This document shows positions 4,413 to 52,988 of a DNA stretch of 64,000 nucleotides, piece by piece. The notes under the pieces were generated by a model. That model was not told the DNA's origin, did no database searches, and saw only the letters and a list, made by a program, of their open reading frames with translations. This DNA is from a candidate division SR1 bacterium Aalborg_AAW-1 (GTDB lineage: Bacteria > Patescibacteriota > Gracilibacteria > Absconditabacterales > Absconditicoccaceae). Each line of letters opens with the position of its first letter. The first letter of the stretch is position 1. The translations under genes were made by a program, and so were the position numbers. The stretch lies in NCBI GenBank assembly GCA_001007975.1, contig CP011268.1:124001-188000 (forward strand). The letters run 5' to 3'.

Positions 4413-5408
4413 ATGATCACTACAATAAGCAGACATCAATCACCATGATACAAAGGGAATATATCCCTGATGATGCTTTTTGTATTAGCTATTGGTTCTC
4501 TCATAGGATTAATGTCGACATGATTCGTGCAAGATATGATCTCATCAAGCAGTCAGATTCGTGATTTTTATCAAAGCTATTATATTGCCAAAGGAGGTCT
4601 AGAATTATGAACACTTGCAGTAAACAGATATGAATATGGATTTGAGGATCAACTCAGTGGAACTACTCTTATTATGAATAATCTCAACTGTAAAAAAGAT
4701 TGTAATCTTAATCTGACCGTAAAATCACGTATTACTACTGATGATAGTAATGGTATCACTATCAATACGAATCTTGAACCCATAGCCAATCATAGCTGTA
4801 CGTTCTCTACTCCTGATAAATTTACGCTAGCTCCTGGAGAATCAAGCATTATACCTCTCTTTGCCGATGAAAGAAAATTATCAGTACAGGGACCCAATAC
4901 TATTCAAAATATCCTCTCACAAACTCCTCAATATAACCTCACTCTCGCGAATAGTGAATGAGCAGCACAATCGCATCCGATCGGTGTAGGAGTAGTATTA
5001 TGAACTACACACCAGAATGAATATAATATTCAAGATATCACAGCACAACAGCAACTCTATATCACAGGCACCATAAGTGATACTCTCAACATTCAAAGTT
5101 TCCTCTACAATACGAAAGCTCTTGATCCAAGTTCTCAAGCACAGATTATGAGTATTGCTGATAAATTTTCTTGAAATCCAATAGCATGAGATCCAAATAA
5201 TGATCGCTTTAATTATCTCTACATTACGAATATTTCACCTACAAATAGTCTATCTTATTGTCTCACGATAAAACCTTCTGCATACGGTTATGTCAGCGAC
5301 AAAAGTATTGTAAGTGCAATAAGCACTTATGGAACTACATCACTCTGACTACAAGCACAAGTAAGAAAACCGCTTCTAGAATATGTTATTAGACCCTATA
5401 CGGAATAA
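4413..5408 (+). CDS. PilX/GspK-like pilus assembly protein
   Basis: 331-aa protein with one N-terminal hydrophobic segment (LMMLFVLAIGSLIGLMSTG, about residues 19-37) followed by YYIAKGGLELG, which resembles the region after the membrane helix in PilX/GspK-type proteins. The remainder is a large extracytoplasmic domain. At least six internal UGAs read as Gly. The start at 4413 is the first ATG after the preceding stop; ATGs at 4470 and 4473 are alternatives. It is the last gene of the pilus operon seen here. Confidence 0.65.
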
Positions 5409-5478
5409 GGAACAATATTATATCATTTTTACAAGATAATGTGCTAACAGAATAATAGCACATAATGCATTATAATCC

Positions 5479-5506
5479 TTGCAACCCTTTTCAACCTCCC
5501 TATAGT
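5479..5506 (+). promoter_or_regulatory. sigma70-type promoter for the 5513-5750 unit
   Basis: TTGCAA (5479-5484), a 16-nt spacer and TATAGT (5501-5506). Transcription would start near 5513. No ORF follows before the hairpin and T-run at 5717-5750, so the promoter appears to serve a short non-coding RNA. Confidence 0.5.
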
Positions 5507-5512
5507 CTTAGT

Positions 5513-5750
5513 ATCAAAAACAAAAACCAAACCGATCTGTATTTCAGATCACCCCTAAAAAACATTGTGTATCAATATTCTACCCAGTGAGAGCACGCCA
5601 AAATTCGTCTCCCATTCCTGCTATTTTGCTTTACTACTCATCATTAGTTATACAGTTTACTATTGTATCACTACTGCTGACTATTGAAGTCTGCCAGGAA
5701 TGGCAGATACCACTAGTCGCAAGGATTATCCTTAGCGATTTTTTCTTTTA
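5513..5750 (+). ncRNA. candidate structured non-coding RNA
   Basis: This is most of the 472-base gap between the pilus operon and grpE. It has no ORF even with UGA as Gly, is less AT-rich than its flanks, and is bounded by a promoter (5479-5506) and an intrinsic terminator (5717-5750). CCATTCCTG (5612-5620) is perfectly complementary to CAGGAATGG (5695-5703), extended across one C/C mismatch by GTCT/AGAT and then AGTG (5586-5589)/CACT (5711-5714). This gives a long rod. A local hairpin CTGCCA-GGAA-TGGCAG (5691-5706) competes with it, and GATCTG/CAGATC makes a 5' hairpin near 5540. The rod shape recalls 6S RNA, but SRP, RNase P and tmRNA signatures were not seen and the family is unknown. Confidence 0.45.
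5717..5750 (+). terminator. intrinsic terminator
   Basis: TCGC-AAGGAT (5717 on) pairs with ATCCTT-AGCGA (to 5738) with one bulge, followed directly by TTTTTTCTTTT. It ends the proposed non-coding transcript and would isolate grpE from upstream reading. Confidence 0.7.
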
Positions 5751-5813
5751 CAAAAAACAATAAAAAAAAGAATAAATATATGCGTATATATATTTAAAAC
5801 AAATGAAATCATA

Positions 5814-5841
5814 TTGAAATAAACAACAACATCAGTATAAG
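5814..5841 (+). promoter_or_regulatory. putative grpE promoter
   Basis: TTGAAA (5814-5819), 16-nt spacer, TATAAG (5836-5841), preceded by ATCAG like two other proposed promoters in this window. It lies 40 bases before the grpE ATG. Confidence 0.35.
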
Positions 5842-5880
5842 TAGAGTATTCAATTTATTTTATTAGTAAAATATACAATC

Positions 5881-6492
5881 ATGACACAAATAACGGATGA
5901 AAACACTACAACACCAATCACAGAAGATACTGATCTTCAAAACATACTCGATCAAGCACAAGAAACTCAAGATACCAAATCACAAGAGCTCTCTCTTGAA
6001 GAACTGCAAGCAAAAATTAAAGAACTTGAATCTAAACTTGCTGATGCAGAAGCGATCACCAAAAAAGCTCAATCTGACTATATTCATATGAAGTTTGATT
6101 TTGATAGTTATATGAGACGCAATGAAGAATCAGCGAAAACTGCCAAAGTCGATACACTCGTCGATGTGGTCAAGAAATTTACCCCTTTTATCGATGGTCT
6201 CCGCCAATCATTAGCAAATATACCAGACGAACAGAGAGATGATGTACTGGTTCAAGGAGTACAGATGGTCTACAATAAGTTTATCTCCTCTCTCGAGATG
6301 ATGGGTATACAAAAAATAGAATCTCTCTGACAGACACCTGATATCGAGCTCCACGAAGCTGTGTCTGCCCTCCCTGTCACGGATGAGACACAAAAAGGTA
6401 AAATCATTCAAGAATTTGAACAAGGATTTATTTACGATAAGTGAGATATTAAAAAGGTAGTTACTCCAGCGAAGGTTGTGATTGGACAGTAA
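5881..6492 (+). CDS. grpE: GrpE, nucleotide exchange factor for DnaK
   Basis: Cytoplasmic co-chaperone that releases ADP from DnaK. The 203-aa product has an acidic disordered N-terminus, a long coiled coil (about residues 38-90, ELQAKIKELESKLADAE then YIHMKFDFDSYMRRNEE), and the C-terminal beta domain with the family signature around HEAVSALPVTDETQKGKI and GFIYDKG. Two UGA codons fall at conserved glycines, including the Gly of the DKGDIKK turn. Length is normal. dnaK and dnaJ are not adjacent, unlike in many bacteria. Confidence 0.95.
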
Positions 6493-18827: not shown

Positions 18828-18948
18828 AATAAATAAAATTACAATATAAAAACAATTGAGTTATACAAAAAAAAAAAAAACTATTGTCAAATATTTTATC
18901 ACTTCATCATTTTCAATAATACCAAATTACCTCACGTGCTATTTTCTC

Positions 18949-18978
18949 TTGAAATTCTCCAAAAAATGATTATATAAT
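18949..18978 (+). promoter_or_regulatory. putative groES-groEL promoter
   Basis: TTGAAA (18949-18954), 18-nt spacer, TATAAT (18973-18978), about 100 bases before the groES start. No CIRCE inverted repeat was seen in the leader, so HrcA-type control is not supported. Confidence 0.45.
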
Positions 18979-19077
18979 CTATCACTGACCACAACGCGAT
19001 CGCAACATTAACTAGGTCAGATCAAATCTTTTTTGAGGCTCATGCTTCATGATTTAATTCTTAATGTTTAATAATCT

Positions 19078-19371
19078 ATGAATCTTATACCACTCGTGGA
19101 CCACATTATTGTAGAACCAGTTCAAGCAGAAACTACTACTGCTAGCGGGATTATCCTCCCTACTGATAACAAAGAAAAACCATCGAAGGGAAAAGTTATC
19201 GCCCTTCCACAAGATAAGACCTATATCAAAGATGGAATCACCATAACTATGGATCTCAATATCGGAGATACCGTTTACTTTACCAAATATGCTCCTGATG
19301 AAGTAGAACTGAATGGTAAAATCTATCTTGTCATTAAACACTCTTCTCTTCTAGCTAAAGAATCTGCTTAA
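19078..19371 (+). CDS. groES: GroES co-chaperonin
   Basis: 97-aa lid of the chaperonin cage, forming a heptamer over GroEL. Family landmarks: PLVDHIIVEP at the N-terminus, ASGIILP then a mobile-loop region, GKVIALP and the C-terminal VELNGKIYLVIKHSSLLA. No UGA inside, so it is intact under either code. It stands 40 bases before groEL, probably in one transcript from the promoter near 18949-18978. Length is normal for GroES. Confidence 0.95.
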   Translation: MNLIPLVDHIIVEPVQAETTTASGIILPTDNKEKPSKGKVIALPQDKTYIKDGITITMDLNIGDTVYFTKYAPDEVELNGKIYLVIKHSSLLAKESA

Positions 19372-19411
19372 TTAATAATTATTAACTTTTAATTGCTAAT
19401 TTTAAATATTT

Positions 19412-21061
19412 ATGTCTGCTAAAATCATCAAATACGGCGACGATGCTCGCAAAGAAATATTTCAAGGTATGGAACAAGTAGCTAAAACAGTAATGGTTAC
19501 TATGGGACCAAAAGGTAAAAACGTCCTTCTCAGTAAATCATTTGGTGCTCCAGTACCAACCAACGATGGAGTAACTGTTGCTAAAGAAATTGAATTTGAA
19601 GATCAATATCACAATACAGGAGCTGCTATCGTCAAAGAAGCAGCTGATAAGACGAATAAACAAGCCTGAGATGGAACTACTACTACTACTACACTCCTGT
19701 ATGGTATTGCCAACGAATGACAAAGATATATTAGAGCGGGAGTAAATCCTTTTGCGCTTTCTAAGGGACTGCACAAAGGTGTCGCTAAAATTATCGAAGA
19801 ACTTCAAACGAAAGCTACCCCAGTCTCCAATAAAGAAGAAATCAAACAAGTTGCATCTATCTCAGCACAAGATGAAGAAGTTGGTCAATTGATAGCTGAT
19901 ATCATAGATGAAGTAGGGAAAGATGGTGTAATATCAGTAGAAGAAGGAAAATCTATGGGATTGACGAAAGAAGTAGTTATAGGAATGCAGTTTGACCAAG
20001 GATATGGTTCTCCATACTTTGTATCTGATCCACAACGTATGGAAGCAGTTATAGAAAATGCATCACTCCTTATTACTGATAAAAAAATCAGTTCTCTCAA
20101 AGATATTATCAATGTACTCGAATCTCTTGCTGCCACAGGACGCAAAAATATTGTTATCATTGCTGATGATGTGGAAGGTGAAGCTCTTACTTCTCTTGTT
20201 TTAAACAAAATGAGAGGTGCTATCAATGTCCTCACCGTGAAAGCTCCAGGATTTGGTGATCGTAAAAAAGAAATTCTCAAAGATATCGCAGCGGTTACTG
20301 GTGCAACCGTCATCACAGAAGAACTTGGACTCAAACTCGAAGAAGCGACACTTGATATGCTAGGTGCAGCTGATAAAGTTATTTCATCAAAAGATAAAAC
20401 AACGATTGTAGGAGGAAAAGGTGAACTTTCTGACATCGATGCACGTGTAAACGACATTAACGCTCAGTTTGAAAGATCAAGTTCTGATTATGATAAAGAA
20501 AAACTTGCTGAACGTAAAGCAAGACTTGTAGGAGGTGTGGCTGTCATCAAGGTAGGAGCTGCTACAGAAATGGAGATGAAAAATAAGAAATATAAGATCG
20601 AAGATGCGCTCAATGCTACACGTGCTGCAGTAGAAGAAGGTATTGTTCCTGGAGGATGAGTAACGCTTGCTAATATCGCTAAATCACTCGAACACTTCAA
20701 TCTTGAAGATGCTGACGAACATATCGGTATCGAAATCCTCAAAGAAGCTATCCAATATCCAGTCAAAAAGATTGCCGATAATGCAGGCTACAAAGGTGAC
20801 TGGGTAGTAGAAGCTATCAAAGCACAAGATGAATTTAACTTTGGATTTGATGCTAAGACTGGTGAGTTTAAAAATATGCTCCAAGCAGGTATCATTGATC
20901 CAGCCAAAGTACTCAGAGTATCACTAGAAAATGCTGTCTCAGCAGCTGCGATGTTCTTGACTACTGATGCTATCATCGTTGATGCACCAAAGAAAGACGA
21001 ACCTATGGCATGAGCTGGTATGTGAGGTATGGGGGGAATGTGATGAATGGATATGTACTAA
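19412..21061 (+). CDS. groEL: GroEL chaperonin
   Basis: ATP-dependent 60-kDa chaperonin. 549 aa, complete. Landmarks: VTMGPKGKNVLL and NDGVTVAKEI near the N-terminus, QAGDGTTTTTTLL, VKAPGFGDRKKE in the apical domain, GIVPGGGVTLANI and a Gly/Met C-terminal tail. UGA encodes Gly in QAG-DGTTT (19667-19669), in PGGG and repeatedly in the GGM tail (21010-21050), which is among the strongest evidence for table 25. The usual ATV after DGTTT is TTT here. Followed by a strong terminator. Confidence 0.98.
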
Positions 21062-50465: not shown

Positions 50466-51788
50466 ATGATAGAATTTCTTATCATAAGTATCATAAGCTT
50501 CATCACATGATATTTTTTTGTACGAATAGGCAATACTCGATTAGCACTTATTCCAGTAGTTGTACTATTTCTTTTCATTATGAGTTGATTATGAGGAGTA
50601 TGAATATGATCATTCACAAAAAATCATATAAAAGATCATGGTTCAAAATTATCTCGATGAATTATTGTTATAGGAATTATTCTATTACTTATTAATCAAT
50701 GAATAGTGCGATATCATGTGATTGCTATTACCGTATTACTCAACATTATTTTCTATTTTAGTTCATATCAATGGAACTATAAAGAAGGTAAAACAGTATT
50801 TTTACGATGAATTATTATGACTTTTCTAGTAGGGATTTTCTACACTTTCCAAACATGACAATATAATAGCATTGCTCATATCATTACTATAGGAGGAATA
50901 ATATTATTGTTGCTATCATACAGTATACTATGAATATTTCGCAACCTTTCACAAGAAGACAATATATATGTAAAACATCAAAAAGAATTCTCAATATATA
51001 TTGTGATATGAATCATTCTTTATCGAATATTTCAACCCAATTATAATGCTATTCTTGTTTCACAACTTGCTTTCATAACATTTACTATAGGACTTCGTCA
51101 AACCTATCTTACAAGAAAAAAAGAAATAAAACATGAAAAAAAAACCTGACTCAGTGGACGTTCTTTACTTGCATGACAGAAAGTATTAGAATGGTATGAT
51201 AATCAAAACGAATCTCTTGATCTTCATATATTCAATTTTCTAATCAACAAAGGATATATGCCATCCTCATATGGAATGATCATTCTTCAGTATAGCCAGA
51301 TTATATGAATTATTATTCTTATAGCACTAAGCATACGAAGTCTATTTCAAAACAATGGATATACACTTATACGATATTGGCTTGGGATCTTTTGCTTTAT
51401 CATAACACTATTTTGAATACAATCACAAGAAAAATTTATTCAATACTATAAAACTATTGCAATAGGATTAATTACAGGATCATATTACATTACCCTTTTC
51501 GATACTACTCACAGTAGCAGCACTTTCACACGATGATCTCTGCTTCGATTATGTATTAATATGATTATAGCATTATTTTACCAAGATATTTTCCCTCAAT
51601 CTAAAAATCTCTTCACAAAAAATGATATCGTTTTTTGGCTCATTATGATCATAATAGGAAGTATCATTACTACACTATCTCTGGTATGGTTAGCACTTCC
51701 ATGACAGATACTTTTTGCGATATGATGCATTATAATAGGTATTGTGAGTTATTTTTCTTATCATATTTGGAAAACAGTAAATAAATAA
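50466..51788 (+). CDS. hypothetical polytopic membrane protein
   Basis: No family recognised. 440 aa with about twelve hydrophobic segments and very little else; the central loop (residues 205-255) is basic and helical (RKKEIKHEKKTGLSGR). Over 25 glycines are UGA, so the gene cannot be seen at all with the standard code. Start ATG at 50466, 11 bases after the coiled-coil protein stop, and a strong terminator follows, so the two form a bicistronic unit. Transporter or channel-like by shape only. Confidence 0.75.
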
Positions 51789-51844
51789 CATCTATATTTA
51801 TATTTTGCGATAAAATATTAGAGTTATTCTAACCTAACCAAATA

Positions 51845-51877
51845 AAAAATCTCTATAATAATTATAGAGATTTTTTT
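51845..51877. terminator. bidirectional intrinsic terminator
   Basis: ATCTCTATAAT (51849-51859) pairs with ATTATAGAGAT (51861-51871), flanked by A-run and T-run. Shared by the membrane-protein operon and the convergent rpsA. Confidence 0.8.
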
Positions 51878-51896
51878 GTATTACTAAGCAATAATA

Positions 51897-52988
51897 CTAT
51901 TCTTCAGAGATTTTTTCTCCTTCAGCTGGTGCTTCAAGAGCCTTCATACTCAATCCAATTTTTCTTGCTCTAGGATCAAGAAGAATAAGTTTTGCTTGAA
52001 CAACTTGTCCAATTTTCACCTGACTCTTCTTTGACAATTCACTCAAGTGGATAAGTCCATTGATATCATCATAGATTCTCATAAACACTCCATAAGGTAC
52101 AAATCTCACGATTTCTCCTTCAATAATGTCTCCAATCTTGAAATTCTTTGGAATATATTCCCATGGGTCTCCTTTGAGTTGTTTTCTAGAAAGTGAGATT
52201 TTTCCATTTTCAAGTCCAATCACCTTCACTTCAAATGGATCACCAATTTTAGCAAGTTTACTAATATGGGCAACGTGTCCAAATGTCAATTCCGAGATAT
52301 GGACAAGTCCTTCCACAGATCCTCCAAGAGTCACAAACAATCCATAACTTGAAACACCACTCACCACTCCATTATATGATTTTCCAACTTCAATTTCTTC
52401 CAGAATCTTCTCTGTTTCTTCTTTCAAAGCTTCTCTTTCAGAAAGGATTACTCTCTTCTCTTCTTCATCAACTGAGATTGCTCTCACACTAAATTCTTTA
52501 CCAATAAGTTCTAGAAGCTTATCAAAAATCTGTTCTTGATCACCATCTTCTACTCTTGGGTAGTGAATTGGAGCAAGTTGAGAAAGTGGTATAAATCCTT
52601 TAATACCATGCATATCCACGAGAAGTCCTCCAAGATTTGCTTCAGTTGGCACAACAGTAAAGATTTCATTTGTTTCAATCTTAGAAAGAATGTTTTTCCA
52701 TACATCAATTTGGAGAAGTTTAGTAACAGAAATAATATAATAACCTTCTTTATGTCTAATAGTAGGATTAATAAGTTCAGCCTCGACAGAAGCACCAACA
52801 GATAAATCTACTCAACCTCTTAGAAGGTCTCTCATTTCTTTCTGAAGAATAATAGCAGTAATTGCACCATCAGCACAATCTACTAAAACTCCAGTATCAA
52901 TCTTTTTTACAACAACTCCTTTCAATTTTTGACCTTCTTTCAGAACAGGAACATTCTGTAACAATTGGTCTTCAGCTTTTTTTGCCAT
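51897..52988 (-). CDS. rpsA: 30S ribosomal protein S1
   Basis: RNA-binding ribosomal protein S1. 363 aa with four S1/OB repeats: residues 18-85 (GQKLKGVVVKKIDTGVLVD), 105-175, 193-260 (GKSYNGVVSGVSSYGLFV) and 280-345 (GDIIEGEIVRFVPYGVFM). E. coli S1 has six; four is common in reduced and Gram-positive-like genomes. One internal UGA near the start. Acidic tail APAEGEKISEE. Lies 78 bases downstream of rpsO. Confidence 0.93.

Follow-up and report, generated by a model that had tools for sequence, protein, structure and literature searches.

Intergenic small RNAs (sRNAs) are the class of bacterial RNAs closest to the locus described here, which shares with them a length of about 230 nt, a sigma-70-type promoter, an intrinsic terminator, a non-coding nature, a stable fold, and poor conservation between genera. 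Masking the ribosome site at the Shine-Dalgarno (SD) sequence is the commonest mechanism of sRNAs. The candidate departs from the general class in that its host is almost without SD sites, which makes SD masking unlikely. 6S RNA (RF00013) resembles the candidate in its rod-like appearance and in the type of promoter and terminator, but the candidate is matched neither by Rfam nor by a family-specific 6S model, and the true 6S RNA of the genome lies at another site. Bacterial SRP RNA (RF00169, RF01854) has in common with it a hairpin with a GGAA tetraloop, whereas the internal loops of domain IV, an Rfam match, and conservation in the family are all missing from the candidate. As in transcriptional attenuators and ON riboswitches, a long-range stem sharing an arm of the terminator is possible in the candidate sequence; unlike in those systems, the supported transcription start lies past the 5' arm, the downstream gene has its own promoter, and there is no conserved aptamer. 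A limited literature search turned up no publication on Gracilibacterial small RNAs.

Genomic context and transcription signals

The source genome is a single contig (C1) of 1.04 Mb, read with genetic code 25. The window, the whole stretch of 64,000 nt that was analyzed, corresponds to C1:124001-188000, and positions given below without a contig name refer to it. The candidate RNA locus is the intergenic region 5409-5880. It follows a + strand type II/IV pilin cluster (T2SSF and N-methylation proteins; last gene ending at 5408) and precedes grpE, which lies outside the RNA at 5881-6492 on the + strand (Pfam PF01025, E 2.8e-26).

To avoid reliance on the E. coli consensus, we built a promoter profile from the 6S promoters of the family. 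6S RNAs were located in relatives and their promoters were placed by means of the 5' ends that the model predicts, giving CTTG(A/C)AA-16-TATA(A/C)T. The training set consisted of 14 foreign 6S promoters, all from other genomes, with scores of 10.2-14.4, and the top matches of the profile in the window are strongly enriched in intergenic DNA (8/16 versus 1.3 expected). The initial annotation had read a promoter TTGCAA-16-TATAGT at 5479, and both hexamers and their spacing were found exactly there, with TTGCAA at 5479-5484 and TATAGT at 5501-5506 on the + strand. The profile gives this site (5479-5506) a score of 13.5-14.3; at 13.5 it ranks seventh among all sites on both strands of the 64 kb and falls within the range of the 6S promoters. 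Transcription from it is expected to start at about 5511-5514. An alternative promoter, TTTACA-17-AATAAT (5428-5456), matches the E. coli consensus at 10 of 12 positions and was rejected because the family profile lends it no support. Since grpE has a separate promoter downstream, TTGAAA-16-TATAAG at 5814-5841 on the + strand (profile score 12.2-13.1), the unit is apparently an RNA gene in its own right and not a leader of grpE.

Upstream of the RNA promoter is a near-perfect dyad, ATAATGTGCTA-N9-TAGCACATAAT (5436-5466, + strand), whose center lies approximately 61 nt before the expected start and whose exact motif occurs only once in the genome. It is possibly an operator or the 3'-end hairpin of the upstream mRNA; a CIRCE/HrcA operator was rejected because the order of the half-sites is reversed relative to the CIRCE consensus. 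Another promoter of the family type, CTTGAAA-18-TATAAT, is strong and lies in the large intergenic region 18828-19411, with its -10 box at 18976, 436 nt ahead of the next + strand gene.

At the other end of the unit, the strong terminator that had been claimed is present at 5715-5744 on the + strand as (AG)TCGCAAGGA-TTA-TCCTT(A)GCGA(TT) followed by a T-run (-11 kcal/mol). Its hairpin, 5715-5740, is the second best of 98 hairpin-plus-T6 candidates on both strands of the window and the best on the + strand. The 5479-5506 promoter and the separate promoter of grpE therefore suggest a gene of about 232 nt that stands alone, with a predicted structured, non-coding transcript at 5512-5743 on the + strand. 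As judged by sequence, the unit lies in intergenic DNA between a promoter and an intrinsic terminator of its own, as expected of a stand-alone bacterial sRNA. The initial annotation had further stated that the unit has no coding capacity. Taken literally this does not hold, as code 25 gives three mechanical open frames of 56-60 codons that overlap with the unit, but it is right in substance because the codon log-odds of these frames are slightly negative, compared with +0.47 bits per codon for grpE; they are negative in all frames of the predicted transcript, which thus carries no coding signature.

Predicted structure of the RNA

The unit 5512-5743 folds with a minimum free energy (MFE) of -57.4 kcal/mol, compared with -34.1 ± 4.0 kcal/mol for dinucleotide shuffles (z -5.84), and none of 500 shuffles was as good. 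The fold of its minus strand is far weaker (z -2.55), and a minus-strand RNA was rejected on this value of only about -2.6. The 5' part of the RNA is C/A-rich, G-poor, and predicted to be mostly single-stranded with small hairpins, among them GATCTG-TATTT-CAGATC at 5534-5550 on the + strand (6 bp, -7.5 kcal/mol, z -6.2), which is dominant in the ensemble.

The part downstream forms an interrupted rod of 92 nt and 33 bp (5612-5703, + strand; MFE -28.6). Its base is the perfect 9-bp pairing of CCATTCCTG (5612-5620) with CAGGAATGG (5695-5703) that the initial annotation had pointed out, followed by helices of 6, 2, 3, 2, 4, and 7 bp and the loop TTACT; between the helices lie single mismatches of two pyrimidines and, once, a larger internal loop. 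Folded alone, the rod has a z-score of -5.59, and 0/1000 shuffles are as good. The competing hairpin with a GGAA loop proposed at the same time is likewise real: GTCTGCCA-GGAA-TGGCAGAT at 5689-5708 on the + strand (-11.9 kcal/mol) excludes the base of the rod. For an RNA starting at about 5512, the minimum is the rod-plus-terminator fold and the GGAA hairpin stays a local competitor.

When 120-nt stretches were scanned along the + strand of the whole window, several of the lowest z-scores fell in the candidate region. Among the 11 intergenic regions of at least 150 nt, the candidate's is the most structured and the other 10 are not comparable. A stable fold by itself is no proof of function. 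Very low folding z-scores (-5.9) were also observed on the + strand at 20701-20820, inside an open frame, and at 51781-51900, at the end of an open frame and before a bidirectional terminator.

Search for relatives

A covariance model built from the rod sequence alone, run over 49 family genomes, recovered the source locus itself and no match in the other 48, and it found no match beside grpE in 29 relatives. A conserved grpE leader was rejected, as the upstream regions in these 29 relatives are unmatched and of differing length. A control model of the same construction, with the genome's own 6S RNA as its only sequence, detected 11 of the 14 foreign 6S RNAs, each with at least 18.5 bits; this search covered 46 kb of loci rather than whole genomes, which makes the comparison with the rod model approximate. 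Because the rod model finds no relative whereas the control finds 11 of 14, the candidate is lineage-restricted or fast-evolving, either genus-specific or evolving much faster than 6S RNA. Apart from the source, the genomes searched included none from the same genus. A scan of GTDB contigs returned only Bacillaceae, and DNA similarity searches gave only short terminator-like and A-rich matches in the family genomes and nothing in phages and viral contigs.

Interpretation and mode of action

The promoter, the strongest + strand terminator of the window, the fold z-score, the strand bias, the non-coding nature, and the fact that the known families are accounted for all argue for a stand-alone RNA gene. 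We consider the locus to be probably a stand-alone, lineage-specific non-coding RNA gene, and most likely one for a fast-evolving small regulatory RNA of the ordinary kind in an under-studied group. The new regulatory RNA that the initial annotation had offered as one of two options is best supported with regard to an independent structured RNA gene, whereas its regulatory role is presumed. RNA polymerase would use a normal housekeeping promoter to start at about 5512 and would stop at the intrinsic terminator at about 5743, leaving an RNA of about 232 nt that consists of the mostly single-stranded C/A-rich 5' part with its small hairpins, the 92-nt rod, and the terminator hairpin. Such an RNA would most likely act in trans, either through unpaired segments that pair with mRNAs or through a rod that binds a protein. 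That a separate promoter-to-terminator RNA gene is kept in a genome with only 8% intergenic DNA in the window suggests that riboregulation persists in this compact genome.

An SD-like motif within 20 nt upstream of the start was seen for only 1 of 49 window genes, and the genome appears to initiate translation largely without SD sequences. Because these are hardly used, SD masking by the candidate is doubtful, and a candidate sRNA would need a mechanism other than that of the textbook sRNA. Duplex scores of the candidate against start regions in the window were unconvincing and no target was significant; for one weak case, gene 38933, 3 of 60 shuffles were as good, which is not significant after three tests. 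An antisense target at C1:653162-653194 (27/33 nt, E 0.02) lies inside a long open frame and not at a start, and was judged to be a chance match. A CsrA-titrating RNA was rejected, as there are only two GGA motifs. That would leave the candidate base pairing at other sites, or a protein bound by its rod.

Alternative explanations

There is some chance, if a modest one, that the locus represents a structured and possibly bistable regulatory RNA of a new class, confined to one Gracilibacterial genus, which would act without SD masking, for example by binding a protein through the rod and its mismatches.

It is unlikely that the unit is an attenuator or riboswitch-like leader of grpE, carried on a transcript from upstream of 5472 or on read-through from the pilus operon. 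In such a leader, the 14-nt segment 5472-5485 (+ strand) would pair with 5716-5729 and so take the 5' arm of the terminator, the polymerase would read into grpE, and closed and terminated folds would compete. The two segments do form an inverted repeat, complementary at 13 of 14 positions, and for a hypothetical transcript 5463-5745 the closed stem with the GGAA hairpin (-64.4), the closed stem with the rod (-63.7), and the rod with the terminator (-63.2) lie within about 1.2 kcal/mol of one another. However, the closing stem is possible only if the transcript starts upstream of 5472, and the best promoter sits on this 5' arm with its -35 box, so that its start falls downstream of the arm. Nor does the 5' part add stability beyond shuffles, as an equally good fold was obtained in 25 of 300 trials with a shuffled 5' part. 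The long closing stem was rejected on these two grounds, and the promoter of grpE at 5814-5841 and the absence of the structure upstream of grpE in relatives also argue against a leader.

Just as improbable is a reading in which the locus is no gene of its own but the end of the upstream pilin operon, with the 3' untranslated region and terminator, possibly as a processed fragment. The locus is on the same strand as that operon, a hairpin is present at 5436-5466, and no other intrinsic terminator was seen on the + strand between 5408 and 5715, making 5715-5740 the first strong one. Against this, a promoter of 6S quality intervenes, and a structured 3' untranslated region of 330 nt would be unusual where so little of the window is intergenic.

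Comparison with known RNA families

An Rfam search, which the initial annotation had proposed as a check, gave no match for the candidate at the gathering level; up to E 10, the only models returned were those of CRISPR repeats and snoRNAs, with low scores that fell well short of the respective thresholds. With the Rfam SRP RNA models, nothing convincing was found at E 10 in the genome and up to 59 relatives (one 14-bit match in 36 genomes), whereas in a positive control these models matched in 13 of 14 genomes, indicating that the SRP RNA of the family is lost or beyond recognition. This result and the GGAA-loop hairpin would both suit a highly divergent SRP RNA at the locus, which we nevertheless regard as very unlikely. 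The hairpin at 5689-5708 is fully paired, without the symmetric and asymmetric internal loops of domain IV, and the candidate is unconserved in relatives, unlike what an SRP RNA should show; these two points alone argue against the identity. The earlier statement that no SRP signature was seen agrees with the missing Rfam match and domain IV loops, although the SRP RNA of the genome was not found at any other place either.

The 6S-like RNA that had been suggested as the other option was not borne out. The size, the rod-like fold, and the arrangement as an intergenic unit with promoter and terminator do recall 6S RNA. Of 59 relatives searched with the Rfam 6S model, 8 gave a weak 6S RNA, and the 6S RNA of the source genome went unreported; a family 6S covariance model built from these weak matches finds 6S RNA in 34 of 49 family genomes. 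The source genome is among them, with its 6S RNA at C1:316911-317058 on the minus strand (E 5e-10, 54.2 bits). At the candidate, the same model gives 8.9 bits on 33 nt, covering the terminator hairpin alone, which we judge to be a chance match. A 6S identity, of negligible probability, is thus counted as refuted, barring a second, unrecognizable 6S RNA. RNase P RNA and tmRNA, of which no signature had been seen, were rejected as identities in the same way: neither has an Rfam match at the candidate, and covariance models place their genes at C1:892365-892717 on the minus strand and C1:780469-780863 on the + strand, respectively.
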